This document shows, in pieces, positions 31,293 through 32,605 of a stretch of 64,000 nt of DNA; within the stretch, counting starts at the first letter, position 1, and each line of letters opens with the position of its first letter. The stretch is from Acidobacteriota bacterium (lineage in GTDB: Bacteria; Acidobacteriota; Blastocatellia; HR10): contig JAUQQC010000001.1 in the NCBI GenBank assembly GCA_030550025.1, forward strand, positions 1 to 64,000. Direction: 5' to 3'. The position numbers were made by a program, and so were the translations under genes. Under the pieces are notes generated by a model. It had not been told where the DNA came from, did no database searches, and worked only from the letters and a program-made list of their open reading frames with translations.

Positions 31293-31589
31293 TCGCGTAT
31301 GCTACGGAAAATGGGCCGCAGTGTCAAGGAGAAAGTGCGGGCGGGGTCGGCCATGGGTAGGTCTATGCGGCAGCCTCAATCCCAAGAGCTATTCCCGACC
31401 AGGGAGCCGAACGCCCAGGCACTGATTCGGCAGGCACCTTTTGAGACACCGAAGCCGTTCGCTCCATTGAAGGTGAGCTTCATTCGGGTGAGTCAAGGCC
31501 GACTTTTTGCGAGGCCAACTAAGCAGCGTAGGCGAGGGCCATCCAGACTCGCTGGCCGTAAAAGCGATTGGGGCTTGACAGACAGTATA
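31293..31589. other. Intergenic stretch upstream of the cysteine-rich precursor
   Basis: About 300 bases between the mraZ operator and the plus-strand precursor gene. The plus frame of the precursor is open through it, but the translation is Arg/Gln/Pro-rich with no domain and no good ribosome binding site, so I do not treat it as coding. A TATAAT at 31586-31591 lies at its end without a well-placed -35. No RNA gene or repeat was recognised. Confidence 0.5.
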
Positions 31590-32396
31590 ATGCCGGACCG
31601 TCAGGAAAGATCTTTGGGGAGGGATGACCATGAGGGAGCGGTCAAGCGCCGAGTTCGGCCTATCTTGATCCTTGTCATCGCCCTGATGGTCCCTTGGCCA
31701 GGTCCCCCGCCTTCCAGAGCGAGATGGACCTTGTTTGCTCAGACGGACGTTGGAAACTTTGGAAAGAGGGTTGAAAGCTTAAGTGGCGAGTTGCTCTCAA
31801 AAGGAGCCCTGCAAGGCGTGGAAATATGCAGCGAACATGTCAAATTACTCACTCTGGCGAGTCAGGAAAGAGATCGCTTCCTGGAGATGGCTTTCAGCAA
31901 TCCTGACTTCGTTAAGATGATGGGCGTCCTGCAAAGAGGTGGTTTTATTGCTTTCACCAATGCGACCAATGCCGTACAGGTATGGCTATTAGGCGAATAT
32001 ATGCGAACTGTGCTCTACGTCCCTCATCAGGCTAAAGATGGAACTCTTGCCCATGCTGTCTTTGGAATCGAAAAGGACGGGATGCACTGGACTGGAGGGG
32101 TGCTGTCTCAGAAAGGGGACATAAAGCTATTGACAGTTAGAGGGGGAATCGTACAACCACTTCGGGATAACCTATCTGAGGCGTTACTGGAACAGTGCGA
32201 CTGTAGACGTTCGTGTAATGTCATTTGCGGTATACTTTGTGGTGGGTTATGTGGGCTGGGATGCGGATTGGCTTGTCTCCTCATTTGTGGAGTAGTCAAT
32301 GTTTGCTGCGGAATAATTTGCGGGACCATTTGCGGAGCAGCTTGCGGTGGTGGATGTGCTCTTGGCTGCGATTATATTTGTAGTCGGGTTTGCTAA
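31590..32396 (+). CDS. Secreted precursor with C-terminal 18-cysteine domain (candidate bacteriocin/Cys-rich peptide)
   Basis: 268 aa from ATG 31590; TTG 31614, preceded by AGGAAAG, is an equally plausible start. A KRRVRP basic stretch and a hydrophobic run (ILILVIALMVPW) form a signal peptide. Next comes a domain of about 150 residues without recognised family, with one cysteine (VEICSEH) and strand-like segments (GMHWTGGVLSQKGDIKLL). The last 66 residues (203-268; bases 32196-32393) hold 18 cysteines: after CDC come two blocks of eight cysteines spaced CxxxC, filled with Gly and hydrophobic residues. The layout recalls halocin C8-like Cys-rich bacteriocin precursors, but the tail has its own regular period. 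Codon use is clearly more AT-rich than that of the neighbours, suggesting transfer. The small membrane gene that follows may act with it. Confidence 0.6.
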   Translation: MPDRQERSLGRDDHEGAVKRRVRPILILVIALMVPWPGPPPSRARWTLFAQTDVGNFGKRVESLSGELLSKGALQGVEICSEHVKLLTLASQERDRFLEMAFSNPDFVKMMGVLQRGGFIAFTNATNAVQVWLLGEYMRTVLYVPHQAKDGTLAHAVFGIEKDGMHWTGGVLSQKGDIKLLTVRGGIVQPLRDNLSEALLEQCDCRRSCNVICGILCGGLCGLGCGLACLLICGVVNVCCGIICGTICGAACGGGCALGCDYICSRVC

Positions 32397-32404
32397 GGGG
32401 AACT

Positions 32405-32605
32405 ATGGGATCTAGGGATTGGCGTTCCATTGGGTTAGTAACTTTCGTGGGGGCTACGGCGTTCCTTTTAGGAAGTCTTGTGGTCTCTTACTTCTTAACG
32501 GGTAGTTTTCGTGTAGCAGGAGCGATCGCAGTGAGCGGAGCCGTATCCTTTGGCCTTGTATATCTGGTCGTGCACTTTCGGTCGCGACGGCATCAGGGCA
32601 AGTAA
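32405..32605 (+). CDS. Small two-helix membrane protein, DUF2061-like
   Basis: 66 aa from ATG 32405, eight bases after the precursor stop, with AAGGGG upstream. Two membrane helices (IGLVTFVGATAFLLGSLVV and VAGAIAVSGAVSFGLVYLVV) flank a TGSFRVAGA turn and end in a basic tail (HFRSRRHQGK). The pattern of RS near the start, TGS in the loop and a second helix resembles DUF2061 small membrane proteins, whose role is unknown. Directly following a Cys-rich peptide precursor and sharing its low GC, it could be an immunity or export partner. That is inference from position only. Confidence 0.6.
   Translation: MGSRDWRSIGLVTFVGATAFLLGSLVVSYFLTGSFRVAGAIAVSGAVSFGLVYLVVHFRSRRHQGK

Follow-up and report, generated by a model that had tools for sequence, protein, structure and literature searches.

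A candidate halocin C8-type precursor with a saturated cysteine lattice in an Acidobacteriota genome

The gene pair and its upstream region

The window analysed here, a 64-kb stretch of DNA, carries two small forward-strand genes whose site adjoins mraZ and, with it, a division and cell-wall cluster (mraZ, mraW, ftsL, ftsI). One encodes a precursor protein (P0001) and the other a small membrane protein (P0002), with the following features (window coordinates, strand, description):

31575..31591, +, TTGACA-(GACAG)-TATAAT box pair whose 5-nt spacer carries a GACA tetranucleotide repeat
31590..32396, +, precursor gene, 268 aa (P0001), an open reading frame with signal peptide, middle domain and cysteine-ladder tail; start codon uncertain
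31647..31730, +, signal-peptide region, residues ~20-47, RRVRPILILVIALMVPWPGPPPSRA, assigned from the sequence
31824..31973, +, putative middle-domain helix-loop-helix, residues ~79-128, from low-confidence AF2 helices and hhalign against halocin C8-like precursors
31968..32162, +, putative beta-rich part of the middle domain, residues ~127-190, from AF2 secondary structure alone (pLDDT <50)
32196..32393, +, cysteine-ladder tail, residues 203-268, the presumed mature peptide, with 18 cysteines; from conservation and the AF2 hairpin
32202..32288, +, cysteine block 1, residues 205-233, eight cysteines every 4 residues, helix 1; from DNA pattern, AF2 and register
32307..32393, +, cysteine block 2, residues 240-268, eight cysteines every 4 residues, helix 2; from DNA pattern, AF2 and register
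32405..32605, +, P0002, a 66-aa membrane protein with two helices and a proposed role as accessory or immunity partner; an open reading frame 64% identical to the neighbour of the homologue L002

GC content is 0.51-0.525 in the two genes versus 0.625 across the window, and the flanks form a shoulder of intermediate GC (mraZ 0.56, next genes 0.59). The AT-rich islet of the first-pass annotation thus stands as a region below the window mean, but it is AT-rich only in relative terms. The only good ribosome-binding site there, a Shine-Dalgarno sequence with ATGs at 31624 and 31630, lies out of the precursor frame, and the mini-ORF starting at these ATGs stops at a TGA overlapping a TTG (31665) that is in the precursor frame. 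Translation of the precursor may therefore begin at the ATG at 31590, which has no Shine-Dalgarno sequence, or by reinitiation at TTG 31665. Because the ribosome-binding site and its ATGs are off-frame, the N-terminus of the window protein is uncertain and its expression is possibly poor; the homologue L002 in genome G001 has a clean Shine-Dalgarno sequence and ATG. The signal peptide was assigned by eye.

Upstream, we infer a promoter from the box pair at 31575-31591. With its GACA repeats, this TTGACA/TATAAT pair occurs once in the window, and the element is common to four other loci of the same genus, with spacers of 21, 20, 13 and 5 nt. A standard promoter scan left the pair unreported because its spacer is not 16-18 nt. 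Between the -35-like and -10-like boxes the GACA copy number varies across the five loci (spacers 5, 21, 20, 5 and 13 nt), and the element is possibly a phase-variable promoter. Like its start codon, the 5-nt spacing of the window copy looks unfavourable to expression.

P0001 had no match in NCBIfam, Pfam, PHROG or PADLOC, and the Rfam search gave none. A PDB sequence search returned low-scoring matches to designed proteins only, none of them within the cysteine tail. Genes for export, proteolysis or maturation are absent next to the precursor gene, where the first-pass annotation likewise noted neither a radical SAM enzyme nor a dedicated exporter. P0002 had been described as a two-helix DUF2061-like protein; it does contain two hydrophobic stretches, but its match to DUF2061 (E 0.0014, 19.4 bits) falls below the Pfam gathering score of 23.1 bits, as does that of its counterpart beside L002 (14.3 bits).

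Cysteine lattice and predicted fold of the tail

In the aligned part of the precursor, cysteines occupy positions 80, 203, 205, 209, 213, 217, 221, 225, 229 and 233, and then 239, 240, 244, 248, 252, 256, 260, 264 and 268. The first-pass annotation had counted 18 cysteines in the last 66 residues, with two blocks of eight spaced four apart, and this is exact for residues 205-233 and 240-268; Cys 203 and Cys 239 add one cysteine ahead of each block. At the DNA level, the pattern 8xTGY+9N occurs exactly twice in the window (32202-32288 and 32307-32393), compared to a mean of 0 in 100 dinucleotide shuffles. When the residues of the tail were shuffled, a run of at least eight cysteines at +4 arose in 6 of 20,000 shuffles, one run each, against two in the real tail. 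The two eight-cysteine runs are real and beyond chance. The tail is also hydrophobic, with GRAVY values of 2.16 in block 1 and 1.46 in block 2, and carries few charges.

Scanning the sampled genomes for 8 or 5+5 CxxxC DNA patterns revealed, among the matches listed, no hydrophobic array besides this family. Most other matches were either DNA repeats or CxxxC arrays of a hydrophilic Gly/Ser/Thr type, of which several lay in phage-derived contigs. A match in G387 from the phylum sample was rejected as a relative, since it is a tandem repeat of (CGLI)n that lies antisense to a different open reading frame. The hydrophilic set includes proteins rich in Gly/Ser/Thr whose long CxxxC arrays occasionally change phase through a CxxC step (L079, L062, L184, L199, L243, L304, L332, L334, L340, L404 and L405), several again in phage-derived contigs. 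In other genomes of the phylum, we noted frames mostly of ~500 aa with about seven terminal CHSA repeats, conserved across several genomes (L409, L410, L412-L416 and L432; the L409 frame is shortened by a contig end), and two short open reading frames with at least seven CxxxC cysteines (L407 on G363:C15 and L411 on G271:C1), the former with a RiPP-like leader of the double-glycine type (..MSKIIGGSQPPCGAVCMVTCSQPCRSSCADTCSQTC).

AF2 prediction for residues 193-268 from two sequences gave helices at fragment positions 2-41 and 46-75; the five models vary, with mean pLDDT from 85.7 for the best down to 46.5. In the full-length model (pLDDT 40, too weak for a fold search) the tail was the best part, and the middle domain appeared as a helix-loop-helix (helices 79-102 and 105-116, low confidence) followed by strands. 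If the hairpin turns at residues 234-239, eight of eight cysteine pairs fall into antiparallel register at i+j=473, an arrangement that none of 5,000 random placements of 18 cysteines reproduced. Foldseek with the tail model returned a single match, a viral p7 hairpin at E 9.9, which is not meaningful, and no bacterial copper storage protein (Csp).

The model and the register support a helical hairpin with facing cysteines, as previously suggested; that stacked disulfides zip it is an inference drawn from the export of the precursor. On a straight alpha helix, cysteines placed exactly four apart would gradually rotate away from one face over 29 residues, so that stacking eight disulfides would require both helices to be strongly supercoiled in the right-handed sense. 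In alpha-hairpinins and twin-CX3C helical hairpins, as in the proposed tail, two helices are disulfide-joined between facing CX3C motifs; these, however, are eukaryotic and hydrophilic with two rungs, and we claim no sequence relation to them.

The homologue and the history of the locus

With P0001 and the two-row alignment A1 as queries, we searched 58 relatives, 162 class-level genomes and a phylum sample of 396 genomes. The sole intact homologue found, L002 (G001:C7), comes from the same genus and is 65% identical; no further relative turned up among the 396 phylum genomes or in plasmid, phage and IMG/VR searches, and on these searches the precursor family appears confined to one genus so far. 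L002 is flanked by a cytochrome P460-type gene on one side and the remnant of a transposase on the other, a site unrelated to that in the window. A counterpart of P0002 follows 3' of it in the same relative position, 64% identical, so the pairing of precursor and P0002 is repeated at an unrelated locus. The homologues with the same cysteine period and the conserved neighbour that the first-pass annotation proposed to look for are thus both represented by L002, but the search also brought up decayed copies and remained within one genus.

All 18 tail cysteines are kept in L002, nine of them by a changed, synonymous cysteine codon. Between the window copy and L002, NG86 dN/dS is 0.061 for the tail and 0.415 for the middle domain; YN00 gives a higher tail value of 0.39, with much lower dS. 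For P0002 and the neighbour of L002, dN/dS (NG86) is 0.67. Judged by the NG86 values, purifying selection acts far more strongly on the tail than on the middle domain or P0002. We propose P0002 as a dedicated partner, with immunity or release the likeliest role.

At the mraZ site, two other sequences of the genus (G001:C2 and G004) retain a degraded fragment of the tail (CALVCATICGAACGGLCAF-like) together with a broken P0002, and a short secreted cysteine peptide and an acidobact_VWFA gene (TIGR03436) are inserted ahead of these remnants; the TIGR03436 gene points to Acidobacteriota. The inserted peptide shares its promoter and signal peptide with the precursor gene but has a different mature part of 75-80 residues, as if one mature part had been exchanged for another while the leader stayed constant. 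The two copies, both beside mraZ, encode 110 and 106 aa (L005, 1528-1860, in G001:C2, and L004, 1543-1863, in G004); in each, two of the CX3C motifs face each other in antiparallel register, with i+j=43 in the motif stretch, which is not rarer than chance. The promoter and signal-peptide stretch of the precursor recurs before different short mature parts in G001:C2, G004 and G003, and G003 and G002 show deletions at the mraZ site. Remnants and deletions at this site indicate that the gene pair was there before the species diverged and has since been repeatedly lost or replaced, with a copy having moved to another place in G001. Repeated loss and replacement is usual for bacteriocin loci.

This history bears on two other explanations. 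The window copy could be decaying or switched off, given its shifted start, shrunken promoter spacer and unusual GC: ribosome-binding site and ATG are out of frame, the spacer measures 5 nt versus 20-21 nt in two relatives, and sister genomes hold decayed copies. The frame, however, is intact over 268 codons, and the tail dN/dS against the intact G001 copy is low (0.06). We regard decay as unlikely, and it would bear on expression rather than on the nature of the product. Alternatively, P0001 might be a structural cell-envelope protein that its cysteine tail anchors or crosslinks, with no killing activity, as its location next to the division and cell-wall cluster and its very hydrophobic tail would allow. 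But in four of five same-genus genomes the gene has been lost or replaced at the mraZ site while its neighbours were kept, and a copy sits at the unrelated G001 locus; a core envelope function is therefore not indicated, making this explanation quite improbable.

Comparison with halocin C8 and proposed mechanism

ProC8 (283 aa) leaves the cell by the Tat route and is processed into halocin C8, of 76 aa, and its immunity peptide, HalI (PMC11509114); HalC8 corresponds to the C-terminal fragment set free by a protease that is not known (PMC12893001). For comparison, we fetched TIGR04449 proteins from haloarchaea (20 loci) and Bacilli; the NCBIfam halocin models recognise them (one haloarchaeal and one Bacilli protein checked). 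The fetched families have an export signal, a middle part opening with a helix-loop-helix and a C-terminal hydrophobic cysteine domain of 55-70 residues, mostly ending at or next to a cysteine. P0001 has the same layout: a signal (by eye), a middle region of ~150 aa with a putative helix-loop-helix, and a C-terminal hydrophobic cysteine-rich peptide of ~66-70 aa whose final residue is a cysteine. The N-terminal helix-loop-helix of HalI is reportedly essential for immunity, as stated in the title of a 2008 paper by Mei et al. cited in PMC11509114.

Profile comparison found similarity above controls on two stretches. Against the haloarchaeal alignment, hhalign matched A1 residues 88-128 to LLTGTEKRTLARELAKTPAFRELAQRARADGAQI with P 0.0011 and a probability of only 20% from the two-sequence profile; no result as good came from 200 column shuffles or from the two-sequence profiles of 31 unrelated window proteins. 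With the Bacilli (staphylococcal) family, the alignment took in the whole tail over 59 columns (P 0.00036, probability only 37%, again from a two-sequence profile), and none of 100 shuffles was as good, even with the cysteine columns fixed. The tail matched the haloarchaeal family no better than cysteine-fixed shuffles (13 of 100). The first six HalC8 cysteine offsets (0, 3, 11, 15, 23 and 37) all fall on cysteines of the L002 tail, although the lattice makes such coincidence easy. Of the canonical ten-cysteine spacing (C-x2-C-x7-C-x3-C-x7-C-x13-C-x7-C-x8-C-x8-C-x5-C), the first six cysteines are present in L002 and the later ones mostly absent; the P0001 tail is one residue shorter than L002 at its start in this comparison.

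The antiparallel register recurs in some family members. Among TIGR04449 proteins, L393 has four of four pairs antiparallel with all spacings multiples of four, and L394 and L396 have four pairs in this register. Bacilli members (NF040679, halocin_of_epi) have three of three, with cysteines at 0, 8, 16 | 38, 46, 54 and all i+j=54. Each of these registers is rarer than 0.4% in random placements; canonical HalC8 lacks an exact i+j register. Cysteine spacings with constant i+j, mostly multiples of four, were seen in the halocin C8-like L393, L394, L396, L397, L398 and L402, and constant i+j is a possible fold rule for part of the family.

Several differences set P0001 apart. It has 18 cysteines on a saturated four-residue lattice against ten in halocin C8, with different spacing in the second half; its signal is short and Sec-like (by eye) rather than Tat; and it has a separate two-helix membrane partner. 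(As a raw count, small membrane open reading frames lie within 100 nt downstream in 6 of the 20 haloarchaeal loci, L377, L378, L379, L384, L390 and L391.) The Bacilli precursors likewise combine secretion, a middle part of helix and beta-looking segments and a C-terminal cysteine hairpin, but with six cysteines at eight-residue steps, giving three rungs instead of eight at four-residue steps. TIGR04449 and NF040679 do not match P0001 at E up to 10, and a whole-genome search gave the same result. Across the phylum, all TIGR04449 matches were below the cut-off and no such precursor was seen at the loci whose frames were read (minus-strand ones in their given orientation), and 40 diverse genomes had none. 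The halocin C8 likeness proposed by the first-pass annotation therefore holds for layout, above-control similarity and register, but not for the family models.

Two further readings concern the chemistry of the tail. A thiol-rich Cu(I) sink is conceivable, since helical cysteines at i/i+4 can bind Cu(I), and Csp proteins are described as cysteine-lined helical bundles (PMC5171941, PMC5519932). Csp1 and Csp3 share helices with many cysteines at i/i+4, but they are four-helix bundles (in Csp3, the monomers) that form tetramers, whereas the tail would be a two-helix hydrophobic hairpin with GRAVY up to 2.2. P0001 has no Pfam match, Foldseek of the tail model gave no Csp or other convincing match, and no metal-handling gene was present among the neighbours searched; the multi-metal site raised earlier thus finds no support, and we consider a copper sink very unlikely. 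Least credible is an enzymatically crosslinked RiPP (sactipeptide, lanthipeptide or similar) in place of disulfides, an earlier suggestion for which the dense, regular tail cysteines and the double-glycine-leader frame with a CxxxC core in the phylum sample (L407) would speak, but which is left unsupported by the signal-peptide export, the long middle domain, the lack of a maturase among the neighbours examined and a tail nearly devoid of Ser/Thr for lanthionine bridges.

Overall, we favour, with moderate confidence, a halocin C8-type pro-bacteriocin that is exported and then freed as a membrane-active hairpin. The precursor probably works like a halocin C8-type precursor, a view we hold at the same moderate strength; we do not file it as a member of the family because the defining model does not recognise it and the spacing and homology tests do not decide. 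On our best reading, it is an extreme, cysteine-saturated halocin C8-type variant whose novelty lies in its eight rungs.

Cleavage of the tail, its disulfides, its antimicrobial action and immunity are all proposed here by analogy. Export would strip the signal peptide, and the middle domain, beginning with its helix-loop-helix, would chaperone the tail, keep it inactive and probably protect the producer. A protease cut near residue 200 would then free the last ~66 residues, which would fold into two hydrophobic helices, both rich in glycine, that pair as an antiparallel hairpin. On oxidation, facing cysteines (i and 473-i) could form up to eight stacked disulfides, yielding a membrane-active peptide of high stability. 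P0002 would shield the producer or aid release.

More tentatively, the pair may represent a new peptide family in which a fully occupied four-residue cysteine lattice forms an eight-rung disulfide ladder closing a membrane-length hairpin, accompanied by its own two-helix membrane partner. The ladder would mark the saturated extreme of a design rule under which facing cysteines keep i+j constant and spacings are multiples of four; some halocin C8-like peptides of archaea and staphylococci follow this rule more sparsely.

Few antimicrobial peptides of archaea are as well described as halocin C8, yet in a part of its literature we found no account of its fold or disulfide pattern. The eight-pair register, echoed with three or four pairs in family members, offers a concrete, testable model of the halocin C8 fold. 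The cysteine register links archaeal halocins and their staphylococcal relatives to a phylum of the gram-negative type, and two hydrophobic helices joined by a disulfide ladder of eight rungs would, if true, make an unusually stable natural scaffold.
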